Positions 4,560 through 10,981 of a stretch of 64,000 nucleotides of DNA are shown here, in pieces. This DNA comes from an uncultured SAR86 cluster bacterium (GTDB taxonomy: Bacteria > Pseudomonadota > Gammaproteobacteria > Magnimaribacterales > D2472). A program made the position numbers and the translations under genes. The DNA lies in NCBI GenBank assembly GCA_902541175.1, contig CACBPP010000001.1:1-64000 (forward strand), given 5' to 3'. The number at the start of each line of letters is the position of its first letter. Within the stretch, counting starts at the first letter, position 1. A model generated the notes under the pieces. That model saw only the letters and a list, made by a program, of their open reading frames with translations, ran no database searches and had not been told where the DNA came from.

Positions 4560-5609
4560 ATGAATTATTCAACTGATAACACAAGAATTATTGATAGAAA
4601 GAAAGTTCCTGCTCCCTATGAGTTAGTAAATAAGTACCCTATTAATGATGAAATTTCAAAACTTGTATACGGTACAAGAAATGAAATTAGCCAAATTCTT
4701 CATGATAAAGATGATCGAATATTTGTAGTGGTTGGGCCATGTTCAATACATGATCCACAAAGTGCAATTGAATACGCAAAAAAGTTATCTAATGAAAATA
4801 AAAATTTTAGTGAAAATCTCTTAGTAATAATGAGAGTTTATTTTGAAAAGCCAAGAACTACAGTTGGATGGAAAGGATTGATAAATGATCCCGATATTAA
4901 TGAAACCTATAACATTGCCAAAGGTGTTGAGATGGCTAGAAAATTGCTTATTGAAATTGCTGAATTGGGATTGCCTGCAGGAACAGAATTTTTAGATCCA
5001 ATTTCACCTCAATATGTAACTGATATTATTTCGTGGGGAGCAATTGGTGCAAGAACAGCAGAAAGCCAAATTCATCGAGAGCTCGCATCTGGTCTTTCAT
5101 GTCCTATTGGCATAAAGAATGGTACAGATGGTGGTTTAAAAGCTGCAATTGATGGAATACAAGCAGCAAATCATTCCCATGTTTTTCTTGGTGCAACAAA
5201 AGAAGCTGATATTGCTATGCTTAAAACAGCTGGCAATAATGATACCCACATTATTTTAAGAGGTGGTAAAGTGCCAAATTTTGACAAAGAATCAGTAGAA
5301 AGTACTTTGACTGCTCTTAAAGAAGCTGAAGTTAATGAATCCATAATGATTGATGCCAGTCATGGAAATAGTCAAAAGAAATTTAAACAACAAATCCCTG
5401 TTATTGATTCGATATGCGAACAGATTTCAGATGGTAACAAAAATATAAAAGGTGTAATGATTGAAAGCCACTTAAATGAGGGTAACCAAAAAATTACTGA
5501 AAAACTTAACTATGGTCAAAGTATTACAGATGCATGTATGGGTTGGGAAGATACTGTAATGTGCCTTAGCAAATTAAATGATGCAATAAATCTAAAAAGA
5601 GGTAAATAA
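4560..5609 (+). CDS. aroG: 3-deoxy-7-phosphoheptulonate synthase (class I DAHP synthase)
   Basis: A 349-residue enzyme condensing phosphoenolpyruvate and erythrose 4-phosphate, the first step of the shikimate pathway. The length equals the AroG/AroF/AroH type. Motifs include VVGPCSIHD (about 57-65, metal-binding cysteine C61), RVYFEKPRTTVGWKG, AGTEFLDPISPQY, GARTAESQIHRELASG and MIDASHGNSQKK. Which aromatic amino acid inhibits it cannot be told safely by eye. aroK and aroB lie about 34 kb away in the same window. Confidence 0.93.
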   Translation: MNYSTDNTRIIDRKKVPAPYELVNKYPINDEISKLVYGTRNEISQILHDKDDRIFVVVGPCSIHDPQSAIEYAKKLSNENKNFSENLLVIMRVYFEKPRTTVGWKGLINDPDINETYNIAKGVEMARKLLIEIAELGLPAGTEFLDPISPQYVTDIISWGAIGARTAESQIHRELASGLSCPIGIKNGTDGGLKAAIDGIQAANHSHVFLGATKEADIAMLKTAGNNDTHIILRGGKVPNFDKESVESTLTALKEAEVNESIMIDASHGNSQKKFKQQIPVIDSICEQISDGNKNIKGVMIESHLNEGNQKITEKLNYGQSITDACMGWEDTVMCLSKLNDAINLKRGK

Positions 5610-5614
5610 TCTAA

Positions 5615-6400
5615 TTGAGCAGTGAGAAAAATTTATCTTTTTCAAGTGAGGTAGCAGAAACACTTGGCATTGAGTGTGCAATCATCCTGAATCTATATAA
5701 TGAAAACTTGTTAGAAGATATCACTTCATTAGATAGCCTAATAAAGTCAACAAAAAAAAATATAAGTTTTCTTGATGAAGAAAAAATTAAAGAATCTATA
5801 AACACGCTAATAAAATATCAATTAATTGATATCAATAAAAAGACTTATAGACTTAAAACTCCAAACAAAACTTCAGATTCATACCAGCTTGATATTGAGT
5901 GGATCCCATCACCTGAAGTAGATGAAGTCTTAAATATGACTGAAATTACTGACGATTTCTATAACCTTAAACTTAAAGAATTTAAAATTTATTGGATGGA
6001 AAGAGGTCAAAAGAAGAATAACTGGAATTCAACATTTATTGATTTTATAAGACGTGAATGGGCAAAAGAAACTAATTCAAAAAAGACTATCCCTCATATT
6101 ATTGATGAAAACTGGTATCCTGATGATGATGTGTTTGATATTCTTAATCTGTCAGAAATAAATAAAGATTCTGCGTTAAGATATCTTAGAGAATTTATCT
6201 TATATTGGAAGGATAAAGGCTCTGCATTTACAACATGGAATTCTAAATTCATTGAGCATGTTAAAAGACGTCATATGATGAGTAATGAAATAGGTAGTGA
6301 TGAAGAAAATAAAAAATATTCTGAGCCAGGAAAATATAAAAAAGACTTCAAAACAAGAAAAAATGACAACACTTGGGCAAAAGAAATCAATCTCGACTAA
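5615..6400 (+). CDS. DopC-like replication protein: winged helix plus two tandem DnaT-like domains
   Basis: A 261-residue protein with a TTG start; an AGAGG lies upstream and there is no nearby ATG. Residues about 8-80 look like a winged-helix domain. Two ungapped 54-residue repeats follow, at 96-149 and 167-220. Each begins W-x-P, has a central EFxxYW, then WNSxFI, and ends in a basic stretch (FIDFIRREW and FIEHVKRRH). This pattern resembles the C-terminal domain of the primosomal protein DnaT. The tail (225-261) is highly charged. The next gene, which overlaps it, resembles lambda replication protein P. The pair therefore matches the published proposal of domesticated lambda O and P genes (DopC and DopE) as helicase-loading factors. 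That assignment is an inference. Confidence 0.6.
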   Translation: MSSEKNLSFSSEVAETLGIECAIILNLYNENLLEDITSLDSLIKSTKKNISFLDEEKIKESINTLIKYQLIDINKKTYRLKTPNKTSDSYQLDIEWIPSPEVDEVLNMTEITDDFYNLKLKEFKIYWMERGQKKNNWNSTFIDFIRREWAKETNSKKTIPHIIDENWYPDDDVFDILNLSEINKDSALRYLREFILYWKDKGSAFTTWNSKFIEHVKRRHMMSNEIGSDEENKKYSEPGKYKKDFKTRKNDNTWAKEINLD

Positions 6401-6944
6401 AGAGGATTTTATAAAATCCATTGATGCTATGTTCCTTAAGCTTGAGTTAGCCTATCACTATCAATTTTATAAAGTGTTTGGCACTGACGAAAAACTTAAA
6501 GAAGGTAAAAAACTTTGGGCTATTACATTAAAAAGTGAATCTCCAGAAACAATTCTTGCCGCTGTCGAGATAGTAGTAGCGTCTCAATCATATTTACCTA
6601 CACTGACTGATCTCATCAAAGCATGCAAAGAAATTAACAAAATGGATGGCTTCCCCTCTGCAGAAGAAGCATATATAGAAGCAAGAAAGTCATTCCAGCC
6701 AAGAGCTGAATTTAATTGGTCTCATCCTATTATTTATTTCACTGGAAAGAAGATTGGTTGGAATAATCTAATGGAAAAAGATTCAAAAGAAAATTTTAAT
6801 TTATTTAAAAAAATATTTAATAATTTAAAAAATGAAGTTATTAATGGAAAAATTTTTAAAATAAAAGATAATACAGACCTTGAAACTAGAAAACCTCTTA
6901 ATAAAAATTTATTCGAAAAATTAAGAAAGGAACATAAAGTTTAA
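6363..6944 (+). CDS. Lambda P-like replicative helicase loader (DopE-like)
   Basis: The frame is open from an ATG at 6297, deep inside the previous gene. The ATG at 6363 (MTTLGQKKS) gives a smaller overlap and is preferred; an even later ATG at 6429 is possible. The core KLKEGKKLWAITLK, SPETILAAVEIVV and YLPTLTDLIKACKE resembles the conserved part of lambda P (an R-Q-W-V-L-A-F helix, a METQ-type helix, then PFLPSPGQF). The C-terminal RKPLNKNLFEKLRKEHK resembles the RPLN...IKAKF tail of P. Lambda P recruits DnaB helicase and loads it at the origin. In this host the protein may do the same for the chromosome. Confidence 0.6.
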   Translation: MTTLGQKKSISTKEDFIKSIDAMFLKLELAYHYQFYKVFGTDEKLKEGKKLWAITLKSESPETILAAVEIVVASQSYLPTLTDLIKACKEINKMDGFPSAEEAYIEARKSFQPRAEFNWSHPIIYFTGKKIGWNNLMEKDSKENFNLFKKIFNNLKNEVINGKIFKIKDNTDLETRKPLNKNLFEKLRKEHKV

Positions 6945-6983: not shown

Positions 6984-7862
6984 ATGAACTTAACTAAAAA
7001 TATAAGAATATCATTGTACATACTTGTCCCAATTCTTTTGTGGATGATTTCAGGTTTTTTTAAAAATGATTCAATTCAAGAACCTATTCAATCATCCGAA
7101 TTATTTAATGTTCAAACAGTTTTAAGTATTGCCGAGGAATATCAACCTTATATAAAACTTAAAGCTACAACGAAATCTGAAAAAAGAATTAATGTAAAAG
7201 CAAAAACATCAGGCGAAGTAGTAAAAATAGGTGCTGTTCAAGGACAATATGTTCAAAAAGATACTGTCCTGTGTAGCTTAGGAGTAGTAGAACTTAATAG
7301 AACAGAAGTTAAAGCGCCCTTTTCTGGTTATATCGAGCAAATTGTAAAGCCTGGAAATTTTCTTGAAAGAGGTCAGGTGTGTGCAACAATTATACAATTA
7401 GATCCAATATCACTTGTTGCTGGAGTTCCAGAATATGACATTAACAAAGTAAGAATAAATCAAAATGTTTATGTTGATTTAGTAACTGGGCAAGCCATTG
7501 AAGGAAAACTGACATTTGTTTCTAAAAGTGCCTCTCCAGATACAAGAACCTTTAATGTAGAATCACAAATTAATAATCCTAATGGCATAATCAAAGATGG
7601 TCTTACAGCAGAAATAAGCATTGAAATTGATAAAGTTAAGGCACATAAAATTTCACCTTCAATTCTTCTTTTAAATGATGAGGGAAAATTAGGAATTAGA
7701 GTAGTAAATCTAGGCAATCTTGCACAATTTATTGAAATTGAAATCTTAGAGGATTCTGAAGAAGGACTTTGGGTTACTGGCATTCCTGAGGAAGTTGAAA
7801 TAATAATACAAGGTCAAGGTTTCGTTGAAGACGGTCAAGAAGTTATAACTAATCGTATATGA
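6984..7862 (+). CDS. RND efflux periplasmic adaptor (membrane fusion protein)
   Basis: A 292-residue adaptor with one N-terminal membrane segment (residues 8-26) anchoring it in the inner membrane. The lipoyl-like half-motifs VKAKTSGEVVKIGAVQGQYV and VKAPFSGYIEQIVKPGNFL are split by only about 25 residues, so the alpha-hairpin is nearly absent. A beta-barrel domain follows (LVAGVPEYDINKVRINQNV). It overlaps the transporter gene by 4 bases (ATGA). The substrate is unknown. The short hairpin may affect how it meets an outer membrane channel. Confidence 0.88.
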   Translation: MNLTKNIRISLYILVPILLWMISGFFKNDSIQEPIQSSELFNVQTVLSIAEEYQPYIKLKATTKSEKRINVKAKTSGEVVKIGAVQGQYVQKDTVLCSLGVVELNRTEVKAPFSGYIEQIVKPGNFLERGQVCATIIQLDPISLVAGVPEYDINKVRINQNVYVDLVTGQAIEGKLTFVSKSASPDTRTFNVESQINNPNGIIKDGLTAEISIEIDKVKAHKISPSILLLNDEGKLGIRVVNLGNLAQFIEIEILEDSEEGLWVTGIPEEVEIIIQGQGFVEDGQEVITNRI

Positions 7863-10800
7863 TTAAAATAATTGACTTTGCGATAAAAAAAGCAAAAACA
7901 ACTCTTTTAATTGCATTTATGGTAATAATTGCAGGATCATATGCAAGACAAGAAATACCAATTGCTGCTTCACCGAATGTACAACTCCCTTTTATAACCG
8001 TATCAGTTTTCCTTGATGGTGCATCTCCAAGCGATACTTCAAGACTGATTGCAAGACCCTTAGAGAACAGATTAAAAACAGTTACTGGTGTTGAGAGTAT
8101 TAGATCAACCAGCTACTTGAGCTATGCAAGAGTATTTCTAGAATTTGAAGTAGGTTTTGATATTGATAAAGCTTTAGTTGATGTAAAACAAGGAGTTGAA
8201 GAGATTAAATATCAGTTGCCACTTGAAGCAGAAGATCCTCAGATTCAAGAGTATAGCGAAGCTAGTTTTCCTGTAATGAATATAAGTATTGTTGGTGGCA
8301 GTTCTGTAAGGCAAAAAGTCTTTTACGCAAGAGAACTAAAGGATCTGATTGAACCTATTGAACAGATTTTAGAAGTTAGAATGACAGGAGCTCCTGAGGA
8401 AGTTCTTGAAGGCGTCATTGATAAAGCAAAAATGGAGTCTTACGGCGTAACATTGTCTGATATCTATTATTCTGTTTCTAATAATAACTTAATAATTCCT
8501 GGTGGTAAGCAAGATACTGGAAGAGGAAGTTTTAATATTGAAGTTCCAAGTATTATTGAATCTGCAAAAGATGTATATGCAATTCCGGTAAAAGTTACGA
8601 AAGATGCAATAGTAACTCTAGGTGATATTGCAATAATTAAAAGAACATTTAAAGATTTCACCTCTTATGCACGAGTAAATGGAGAGGATGCAGTCACATT
8701 AGAAATTTCTTTAAGAGAAAGTGCTAACGCAATAGATGCCTCAACTGCCATCAGAGAAATACTTACTAGCTTCGATAAAACACTTCCAAATAATCTTGAT
8801 ATTGTTGTTTCTAATGACGATACGATATATGCAAGTCTCATGGTAAAAGAGCTCAATGGGAATATCATAGCTGCAGTAATGTTAATTATGGTGCTAGTAA
8901 TAGCAAGTATGGGGACTAGAGTGTCAATGTTGGTTGGTCTTTCGATTCCTTTTTGTTTTTTAATGACATATTTAATTTTGTATGCTTTAGATATGGAAGT
9001 AAATTTTCTTGTAATGATGGGTTTGCTCCTCGGTATGGGAATGTTAATTGATGGTTCCATTGTTATTACAGAATATGCGGATAAGAAAATAGCTGAAGGT
9101 CTCTCTCGAGTTGAAGGATATACTCTAGCTTCAAAAAGAATGTTTTATCCAATTATTGCATCAACTGGAACAACACTTGCTGCTTTCATACCAATGATGT
9201 TTTGGCCAGGCTTCACAGGCCAATTCATGAAATATTTGCCCATTACAATTTTCTTTGTTTTATCAGCATCTTTATTTTATTCACTTATTGTAATACCTGT
9301 TCTTGGTGCATACTTTGGACAAAAAGAATCTGCTCTAAATAATGATGATGGTCATACTTCAATTTTTGTAAAGCTGACTGATTGGTATGGAAAATATATT
9401 AAAAGATTTGTAAGAAATCCCATTGAAACTGTAACTGCAGTTGTGTCTGTGCTGTTAATAATAATTATGAGTTACTCTATTTCTGGCATGGGCACAATTT
9501 ATTTTGCAATTGTTGATCCAATACAGGCAAATGTAACCATCAAGGCTCGAGGTAATTTTTCTGCACTTGAAACAAAGGAAATCATTGAACAAGTTGAAGA
9601 AAGATTTATGGAAGTTGAAGGTATAAAGAATGTGTATCTACGATCTGGTTCAAATTGGTGGGAATCAGGCTCGGACAGAGTTGGTGGTGGTTTTATAGAA
9701 ACATTGGAACCTTCACAAACAAAAATTTCTGGTTTCGAGATTATGGATCGCTTAAAAGAGTCAACCAATGATTTACCAGGAATAACAGTTGAAATTGAGG
9801 CAGACGAAGGTGGACCATCATTTGACTCCCCTATTGAATTAGATATTTTTGGTGATACAGAAGAACAAGTGAATGAGGCAGTTACTAAAATTGAAAATTA
9901 TATGCGTAATAGCATGATAGGTTTAAATAATATCTTCTCTTCCAAAGCATATCCATCTGTTGAATGGAGTGTTGAAGTTGATAAGCAAAAGGCTGCTCAA
10001 TTGGGTGTTAGCGTAAGCGATGTTGGCGCTTTAGTGCAAATGTTAACGTCTGGATTTAAAGTAGGAGAATATAGGCCAGATGATGCTAAAGACGAAGTCG
10101 AAATAAGAGCACGGTTTCCTGACTCTGATAGGACTATTACTGGAATAAGAGACTTAAATGTAGTTACCAGACAAGGTACTGTGCCAGTGAGTTCTTTTGT
10201 ACAAGTTGTGCCAAAAGAAAATCGTCAAACAGTTAACAGAAAAAATGGTAAATATTTTCAGGAAATTGGGGCTGGAACTGAAGATGAGTCCAAGGTTTCT
10301 GAAAAAATTAATCAGTTGAGTGACTGGTTAGAGACTGCTAATCTTGGGCCTAATATTAGTTATAAATTCAGCGGTATGGCTGAAGAAACAGAGGATGTTA
10401 ATAGATTTATAATTATAGCTGGAGTAACAGCTGTATTTATGATGCTCTTAATGCTCATCACCCAATTTAATAGCTTTTACCAATCTTTTATCATCCTATC
10501 AGCGGTAACGATCTCATTTGTTGGAGTGCTTTTGGGCCTTCTTATAACAGGTAAGTCTTTTAGTACTACAATGACTGGTATATCCATAGTCACACTAGCA
10601 GGTATCGTTGTGAACAATAATATTGTACTGATTGATACTTTTAATAAAATGAGAGATGAATCACCTCAAGTAGACCAATCAATTCATATCATTAATGCAT
10701 GTAAGCAAAGGTTGCGGCCGATTATATTAACATCTCTAACAACAATTTTTGGTTTATTGCCTCTAGCAATGGGTACAAGTGTAGACATAATTTCAAGAGA

Positions 10801-10981
10801 TATTGTCATTGGAAGTAGAGTTGTAGATTGGTGGTCAAACCTTGCCGTTTCAATTGTATGGGGTCTTGGTTTTAGTACTTTTATGACACTAATATTAACT
10901 CCTGCGGTTTTATCACTACCTTATGCATTAAAAAATGAGTATAAAAAATTCTTTAAAACAGAAGCTAATGGCATACAATAA
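7859..10981 (+). CDS. RND efflux transporter, inner-membrane permease
   Basis: A 1040-residue AcrB/HAE1-type proton antiporter with the usual duplicated plan of 12 membrane helices and two large periplasmic loops. The proton-relay positions differ from AcrB: the TM4 motif reads MLIDGSIV, so only D398 remains of the Asp pair, and the TM10 lysine position is asparagine (VVNNNIVLID, about N919). No TolC-like channel gene is adjacent, so the pump probably uses a channel encoded elsewhere. The substrate is not predictable from sequence. Confidence 0.92.
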   Translation: MIKIIDFAIKKAKTTLLIAFMVIIAGSYARQEIPIAASPNVQLPFITVSVFLDGASPSDTSRLIARPLENRLKTVTGVESIRSTSYLSYARVFLEFEVGFDIDKALVDVKQGVEEIKYQLPLEAEDPQIQEYSEASFPVMNISIVGGSSVRQKVFYARELKDLIEPIEQILEVRMTGAPEEVLEGVIDKAKMESYGVTLSDIYYSVSNNNLIIPGGKQDTGRGSFNIEVPSIIESAKDVYAIPVKVTKDAIVTLGDIAIIKRTFKDFTSYARVNGEDAVTLEISLRESANAIDASTAIREILTSFDKTLPNNLDIVVSNDDTIYASLMVKELNGNIIAAVMLIMVLVIASMGTRVSMLVGLSIPFCFLMTYLILYALDMEVNFLVMMGLLLGMGMLIDGSIVITEYADKKIAEGLSRVEGYTLASKRMFYPIIASTGTTLAAFIPMMFWPGFTGQFMKYLPITIFFVLSASLFYSLIVIPVLGAYFGQKESALNNDDGHTSIFVKLTDWYGKYIKRFVRNPIETVTAVVSVLLIIIMSYSISGMGTIYFAIVDPIQANVTIKARGNFSALETKEIIEQVEERFMEVEGIKNVYLRSGSNWWESGSDRVGGGFIETLEPSQTKISGFEIMDRLKESTNDLPGITVEIEADEGGPSFDSPIELDIFGDTEEQVNEAVTKIENYMRNSMIGLNNIFSSKAYPSVEWSVEVDKQKAAQLGVSVSDVGALVQMLTSGFKVGEYRPDDAKDEVEIRARFPDSDRTITGIRDLNVVTRQGTVPVSSFVQVVPKENRQTVNRKNGKYFQEIGAGTEDESKVSEKINQLSDWLETANLGPNISYKFSGMAEETEDVNRFIIIAGVTAVFMMLLMLITQFNSFYQSFIILSAVTISFVGVLLGLLITGKSFSTTMTGISIVTLAGIVVNNNIVLIDTFNKMRDESPQVDQSIHIINACKQRLRPIILTSLTTIFGLLPLAMGTSVDIISRDIVIGSRVVDWWSNLAVSIVWGLGFSTFMTLILTPAVLSLPYALKNEYKKFFKTEANGIQ

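Follow-up and report, generated by a model that had tools for sequence, protein, structure and literature searches.

A probable phage-derived helicase-loading gene pair in SAR86, and a DopE-type tail motif on DopC in families that lack DopE

How is the replicative helicase DnaB loaded in SAR86, and how much of a loader does that take? SAR86 is among the abundant uncultured bacterial groups of the surface ocean. In our literature search, SAR86, DnaA and “replication initiation” were not found together, and among the matches listed there was nothing on how SAR86 loads its replicative helicase. What a helicase loader needs to do is itself an open question, which the SAR86 families make directly testable: they look like a natural deletion series, which suggests that a single short helix is the least that is needed to recruit DnaB. 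We describe here a gene pair in the window (the whole stretch of DNA that was analysed, 64,000 nucleotides long) and its relatives in 101 genomes of the order, which span four families (f1 to f4) and 18 genera; the window's own DopE is shown among those of f1. The genes known as DopC and DopE were reportedly proposed by Brezellec et al. in 2017 to be domesticated lambda O/P genes, and the title of the founding paper is said still to call this third loader type “putative”. The genomes of the order are mostly incomplete assemblies; the source assembly (1,155,361 bases in 13 contigs) is 90% complete.

An earlier note on this DNA had described two overlapping reading frames at 5615-6944, placed just after aroG in a housekeeping region without phage genes. 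Both frames are indeed found there, on the plus strand, and the gene order in the window's family is aroG - DopC - DopE - HlyD - RND pump:

4560..5609, plus strand: aroG-type DAHP synthase, the conserved upstream neighbour (Pfam DAHP_synth_1, 1.5e-91)
5615..6400, plus strand: DopC-like gene (ORF1), 261 aa, TTG start, 5 bp past the aroG stop codon
6300..6944, plus strand: DopE-like, lambda P-like gene (ORF2), 214 aa from the ATG at 6300
6984-7862, plus strand: HlyD-type membrane fusion protein, a conserved downstream neighbour (Pfam HlyD_D23)
7859-10981, plus strand: AcrB-type RND pump, a conserved downstream neighbour (Pfam ACR_tran)

The list of open reading frames starts ORF2 at a GTG at 6297. 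We chose 6300, which lines up with the ATG of its relatives, and with this start the two genes overlap by 101 nt. The described setting also held up: a DAHP synthase gene lies directly upstream, and the eight neighbours tested by Pfam are all housekeeping or transport genes, with ScpA, ScpB, a pseudouridine synthase, a polyprenyl synthase and a DXP synthase among the genes near the pair. The same frame is kept in all four families, with aroG, HlyD and RND beside the locus in 17 of the 17 stretches examined. Residency in a conserved context outside a prophage, which is one criterion for membership of the DopC/DopE set, is thus met.

The locus is under purifying selection. Values of dN/dS were 0.06-0.45 for DopC (15 pairs, tailed DopC included) and 0.00-0.28 for DopE in 10 of 11 pairs (short DopE included), the remaining pair being undefined for lack of any synonymous change. 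ORF2 has 49 relatives in the named genome collection, and the aligned relatives reach down to 30% identity for DopC and 32% for DopE. Given these distant relatives, the low dN/dS and the profile matches described below, we take ORF1 and ORF2 to be real genes. The pair could still be a recent prophage remnant with no chromosomal role, since relatives of both proteins occur in phages and distant ones are encoded on two viral contigs. Such a remnant is hard to square with low dN/dS and with DopC occurring in 92 of the 101 genomes of the order, and we rejected it on the grounds that the same neighbours are found in four families; we give it almost no credence.

DopE is a member of the phage lambda P family. 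The conserved lambda P core that had been claimed for this protein was borne out at the level of a PHROG profile, of profile-profile alignment and of fold. The window's ORF2 matched phrog_109 (“P-like helicase loader”) at 1.5e-14, and this profile matched 23 of 23 aligned DopE members at 0.01 or better. The Pfam model Phage_lambda_P (PF06992) matched 21 of the 23 at E 0.1 or better, the best at 1.5e-11, and for the ORF2 of the window itself gave nothing up to E 10. When DopE was aligned by hhalign with an alignment of phage P proteins (lambda P and four others), the probability was 99.1 and the E-value 6.7e-19. The DopE profile scored 70 bits against a Pseudomonas phage P but only 14 bits against lambda P itself, and a profile search of the PDB found only G39P (E 0.0085) and not lambda P. 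The AlphaFold model of DopE, which is of moderate confidence (pLDDT 77, pTM 0.52), had DnaB-bound lambda P (9oa1) as its three best PDB fold matches. VIA placed model residues 24-215 on lambda P 24-223 with a Z of 10.5 over 179 residues, compared to 4.8 for the first unrelated entry, with the caveat that a Z under about 13 may reflect an arrangement common in helical proteins. Because the rmsd to full lambda P was 8.0, we infer that the domains match and that their relative placing differs. Three parts can be told apart:

6405..6620, plus strand: N-terminal helical domain, G39P-like, residues 37-108 counted from 6297 (VIA, profile)
6648..6872, plus strand: helical domain like the lambda P middle domain, residues 118-192 (VIA)
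6903..6941, plus strand: C-terminal tail helix, ...LFEKLRKEHKV-stop, predicted and proposed to dock on DnaB

Taken singly, the N-terminal domain matched G39P (1no1) with a VIA Z of 8.8 and an rmsd of 1.7 over 67 residues, and the middle domain matched 9oa2_V (lambda P 119-200) with a Z of 6.7 and an rmsd of 2.9 over 74 residues. In the model, a helix at 203-212 follows a loop, and the VIA alignment extends as far as residue 215 of the model and residue 223 of lambda P, which leaves ten residues to the lambda P end. The earlier note had also pointed to an RPLN-type tail. The letters are there (RKPLN in the window, GRPLN in lambda P), but they are weakly conserved compared with the LRKKH that follows: P, L and N, though the commonest residues at their positions, occur in only 65, 58 and 50% of 26 distinct family-f1 DopE, against 77-100% for LRKKH.

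For DopC, a winged helix followed by DnaT-like domains had been proposed. The DnaT part is well supported by profile and by fold, while the winged helix has only weak matches and the model behind it. The features of the protein are as follows:

5636..5851, plus strand: winged-helix-like N-terminal region, about residues 8-79 (AlphaFold model; weak matches only)
5891..6073, plus strand: first DnaT-type ssDNA-binding repeat, about residues 93-153 (one of two Pfam DnaT stretches)
6101..6271, plus strand: second DnaT-type ssDNA-binding repeat, residues 163-219 (Pfam DnaT 163-219)
6362..6388, plus strand: C-terminal W-A motif NDNTWAKEI, a possible DopE-binding peptide without binding data

Profiles of lambda P and DnaT run against both proteins, a check that had been suggested, returned the P family for ORF2, by PHROG, and DnaT for ORF1, the latter as two stretches of Pfam DnaT (PF17948) at 7.5e-33. 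We set the boundaries of the first repeat ourselves from the conserved W96-W149 of the alignment and from the model. The second repeat gave VIA Z scores of 8.5 to 6aeq_A and 8.3 to 4ou6_B, the DnaT ssDNA-binding domain. Foldseek with the DopC model, whose confidence we graded as moderate (pTM 0.32), reached DnaT only weakly, at E 0.3. VIA placed the N-terminal region only weakly (Z 5-6) on winged-helix proteins, PerR among them, and phrog_11233 weakly matched residues 8-87 (E 0.033). DnaT domains numbered three in 2 of 2 f2 proteins scanned and two in 2 of 2 f4 proteins. DopC is split over two frames in genome G062 and in the named records of loci L051 and L075, by sequencing error or frameshift.

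The phage connections of DopC are looser. ORF1 matched phrog_1032, a replication initiation protein, at 1.6e-9, and this or other phage “replication initiation” PHROGs matched 14 of 22 members of the DopC alignment; the DopC profile did not match lambda O itself, and a tblastn search with DopC found no phage relative. Pattern-based scans of viral contigs gave one distant relative each, at 25 and 28% identity. On one viral contig (L192:3920-4564, plus strand), a protein with DnaT repeats ends in a W-A motif, and the DopE profile matched nothing in the stretch; on another (L191:2842-4585, plus strand), a gene of 358 aa precedes a P-like one that scores 68 bits with the DopE profile, an O-like/P-like pair. 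In Escherichia phage vB_EcoP_PAS61 (L209:1001-2598, plus strand), a “primosomal protein I” gene, the DnaT part of which is matched by the DopC profile, lies directly before the P gene, and this DnaT-P pair resembles DopC-DopE.

The C-terminus of DopC deserves separate mention. In 37 of 37 DopC from families f1 and f3, 3-7 residues follow the last W, and by eye some phage O C-termini resemble this W-A motif (...NDTSWAVGLEQDLF, ...NTDWIYGVDL). The ends compared were NDNTWAKEI from DopC of f1 and f3 and NDTSWAVGL and NTDWIYG from phage O (L117, L118, L119); two of the five phage O proteins compared had no clear W motif. A motif common to DopC and phage O is possibly an O-P contact. Against the motif as a DopE binder, it persists in f2, which has no DopE.

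We then come to the other helicase loaders, for which the genome was searched as had been suggested. DciA (PF05258) was not found in the source genome, a 90% complete assembly, and its profile matched 0 of the 101 genomes of the order. The same profile matched 298 of 369 genomes of the class, 292 of them over its cut-off, and therefore works in Gammaproteobacteria. The AAA+ profile of DnaC/DnaI (PF01695) had three matches in the source genome: Pfam identifies two as DnaA and Lon, and the sequence of the third reads as ClpX. Across the order, among the matches listed, the best PF01695 match scored 39 bits, and those above the cut-off fell in DnaA- or Lon-sized frames with one exception, a 297-aa frame at a contig end; some of the sub-cutoff matches in frames of 256-337 aa were left without an identity. 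On the matches in the source genome and those listed for the order, a hidden dnaC was rejected, and no DnaC/DnaI was recognised in the 101 genomes. DopC and DopE themselves matched neither PF01695 nor PF05258 up to E 10. DnaB is present in one copy in the source genome. A genome without dciA and dnaC/dnaI is a further criterion for the DopC/DopE set, and it too is met. As far as the available portions of these sources go, the order Cellvibrionales holds organisms without both dciA and dna[CI] (PMC5109545, 2016), and DopE is mentioned as a helicase loader (PMC13326638).

Lambda P homology, DnaT domains, a fixed locus under selection and the failure to recognise another loader are observed. On these grounds we consider it probable that SAR86 loads its helicase through this pair, domesticated from phage, in place of DciA/DnaC, with the docking helix as the indispensable part; that DopE binds DnaB, and that the pair loads it, are inferences. 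In the scheme we propose, DopC would mark and cover ssDNA at the origin or the fork through its tandem DnaT repeats, and would recruit DopE, perhaps through the C-terminal W-A peptide. DopE would then bind hexameric DnaB as lambda P does: one of its helical domains may wedge between the C-terminal domains of DnaB, its loop may run along the ring and its C-terminal helix is predicted to dock at the DnaB linker helix. DnaB would thereby be brought to ssDNA and opened, the ring opening being likewise inferred.

Alternatively, the pair, or DopC alone, could serve in replication restart, as DnaT does in the PriA pathway of E. coli, while DnaA and DnaB manage origin loading without a dedicated loader. 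Lambda P, of which DopE is a homologue, acts at an origin, and with DciA and DnaC unrecognised in 101 genomes (for PF01695, among the matches listed) no other loader is left; the DopE tail, moreover, is present where the DopE body is missing. It is true that the best-supported domains of DopC are those of DnaT, that two families, f2 and f4, manage with no DopE body, and that, in the part of PMC13377028 available, the C-terminal domains of E. coli DnaT form filaments on ssDNA at forks, which mark the loading site. All told, we find restart as the main role quite improbable.

The loading system is not the same throughout the order. The DopC profile matched 92 of the 101 genomes, in all four families and in 18 of 18 genera. 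The DopE profile matched 51, all of them in f1 and f3 (51 of 53 genomes), and the two genomes missing there also had no DopC match. In f2 and f4, the DopE profile matched none of 48 genomes, and DopC is present in 41; the locus reads aroG - DopC - HlyD - RND and is otherwise intact. An intermediate form is seen in genus g4 of f1 (three genomes), where the middle of DopE has been lost and the 147 aa that remain comprise the G39P-like part and the tail. In the class sample of 369 genomes, the DopE profile matched 13 (E 0.001) and the DopC profile 6 (E 1e-6). Outside SAR86, genomes G103 and G145 carry both genes and have no DciA match. A P-like match was found together with DciA in G111, G140, G183, G188, G199, G280 and G427, whose P-like genes may be of prophage origin.

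Two loci outside SAR86 have other forms. In G103 (L161:3027-4494, plus strand), which has no DciA match, a DopC with three DnaT domains is followed by a short DopE of 169 aa, a half-size DopE outside SAR86; by reading, the genes around it resemble those for biotin carboxylase and a phospholipase D-like protein, along with metX/metW-like genes. G260 (L106:709-1866, plus strand) encodes a 385-aa protein, without a Pfam match, in which an N-terminal part is joined to a DopE-like N-terminal domain and an end of the LARLRELRRSLG type; this genome is absent from the DciA-positive ones among the matches listed. The protein is possibly a third, fused form of loader.

Where DopE is missing, DopC is longer at its end and closes with the motif that ends the DopE of f1, with the consensus L[RK]xK[HY]x[IVL]-stop; compare ...LFEKLRKEHKV (DopE of the window) with ...NFKKLKEKHQI (DopC of f2) and ...TLTNLREKYKI (DopC of f4). 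It closes all 39 of the complete DopC examined there and none of the 37 from families that have DopE. We think that this motif on DopC in the absence of DopE is new, and know of no description of it. In f2, the tail comes after a linker and a kept ...SSW-type motif, seemingly the ordinary DopC end; in f4, the SSW-type motif is gone. When a position-specific matrix was built from the last 8 residues of f1 DopE, 20 of 20 distinct DopC ends from f2 and f4 (39 proteins) scored above the best of 703 control C-termini, as did 0 of 19 distinct ends from f1 and f3 (37 proteins). A five-residue pattern, [LI][RK]x[KE][HYF] within the last 10 residues, chosen after inspection of the data, occurred in 25 of 26 DopE of f1 and 7 of 11 of f3, where tails are looser, and in 0 of 786 controls; for DopC the counts were 23 of 23 in f2, 14 of 16 in f4 (two tails miss it), 0 of 26 in f1 and 0 of 11 in f3.

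For the f2/f4 set, DopC was read in 40 of 41 positive genomes (G033, of f2, is absent) and 39 were judged. L146 (in G088) was excluded for lying at a contig edge, L021 is without DopC for the same cause, and L099 was left out; the DopC of L011 is split over two frames and its C-terminus was still counted. That the tail is an artefact of mis-called reading frames was rejected, as each of the DopC frames of f2 and f4 is closed by a stop codon. The next gene, matched to the window's HlyD in eight cases, begins -1 to 54 nt after DopC in the 38 of 40 loci where it was seen.

Was DopE lost once or twice? A DnaB tree (29 rows) joined f1 with f4 and f2 with f3, with supports of 98/97 and 100/100, and a tree of concatenated AroG, HlyD and RND (17 rows) gave the same arrangement at 100/100; the neighbour genes reject f2 and f4 as one clade (p-AU 0.0002). 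One of the 30 genomes, G028, had no DnaB match and is outside the DnaB tree. With DopE in f1 and f3 and this species order, two losses are simplest, and species-tree parsimony implies that the loss of DopE and the gain of a tail on DopC happened twice. The DopC tree alone does not reject f2 and f4 together (p-AU 0.244), and horizontal spread of tailed DopC therefore remains possible. Among the DnaB rows, that of G145 (L189) is 668 aa long, compared to 449-479 in the other 28, and an insertion such as an intein is possible.

The tails themselves give a mixed answer as to their source. With tail ends containing X excluded, the best match placed all 14 of 14 distinct f4 tails nearer to the DopE tails of f1, and 14 of 21 f2 tails nearer to those of f3. 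By mean score, the f2 tails were nearer to DopE tails of f1 (21.0) than to those of the sister family f3 (10.6). Fusion as the source of the tail is an inference, and convergence on a short motif in its place cannot be excluded.

What might such a tail do? In the portion of PMC6391071 that we could consult, the last segment of lambda P lies at the DnaB linker helix and is assigned to the C-terminus, by authors who call their sequence assignment tentative; a lambda P 103-233 fragment still binds DnaB, and a K229 crosslink places that residue near the DnaB C-terminal domain. The available part of PMC9912922 has DciA, DnaC and lambda P share one site on DnaB, the linker-helix/docking-helix module. 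Since the lambda P C-terminal helix is docked at the DnaB linker helix, we propose that the docking tail is what must be kept. In f2 and f4, the rest of DopE would have been lost and the docking helix added to the end of DopC, twice, so that DopC may be a one-protein tether from ssDNA to DnaB, with ring opening passive or brought about by DnaA. The loader of these families would then have been pared down twice independently to a DnaB-docking helix of ~12 residues on a DnaT-repeat protein, free of ATPase and without a ring-opening domain, and the series from full DopE through the half-size DopE of g4 to the tail alone would reveal the essential part of the loader. We put forward these two statements jointly and tentatively, as falling just short of an even chance. 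DopE absence together with tailed DopC is observed; the docking role is not.

The tail may instead be a peptide for some other partner (DnaA, SSB, primase or a protease), or convergent on DopC. Only sequence and position argue for DnaB, and the tail matrix does not pick out the lambda P C-terminus, so that the link from tail to lambda P rests on position, a structural alignment known only by its end points and resemblance by eye; the mean scores of the f2 tails, which do not single out the sister family, also leave room for this. On the other side, the VIA alignment reaches the last residue of DopE and lambda P 223, which falls within the segment that PMC6391071, as far as available, locates at the DnaB linker helix. 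The five-residue pattern, moreover, occurs within the last 12 residues of 3 of 12 phage P proteins, namely lambda P and two relatives, with 15 of 786 controls having it in the last 20. We think another partner or convergence unlikely, without dismissing it.

How does the probable loading system compare with known ones? DciA and DnaC/DnaI have the same proposed task, but DopC and DopE match neither Pfam model. With SPP1 G39P, DopE shares the fold of its N-terminal domain, to which it adds a lambda P-type domain and the tail; the short DopE of g4 is a G39P-like part plus tail. DopC has the ssDNA-binding domain of E. coli DnaT (PF17948; fold Z of 8.5 with the domain from Salmonella and of 8.3 with 4ou6). 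DnaT, however, consists of one N-terminal domain and one ssDNA domain, as given in the accessible part of PMC13377028, whereas DopC has two or three tandem DnaT domains, an N-terminal domain that differs as far as seen and, in f2 and f4, a DopE-type tail; the DnaT domain arrangement is thus not met.

Lambda P (PDB 9oa1, 6bbm) is of the same family as DopE by profile, with its domains in the same order and a terminal helix after a loop. It differs in that DopE has only 11-14% identity to it in structural alignments, is chromosomal, is short or missing in some lineages, and has as partner a DnaT-type protein without a match to lambda O. Closest are the DopC/DopE of other bacteria, reportedly two adjacent chromosomal genes, the second of them P-like, in bacteria without DciA and DnaC/I. 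The SAR86 pair probably belongs to this published set, a placement made with no sequence comparison. It departs from the set in the DnaT repeats of its DopC, which has no profile match to lambda O, and in having two families without DopE in which DopC bears the tail motif.
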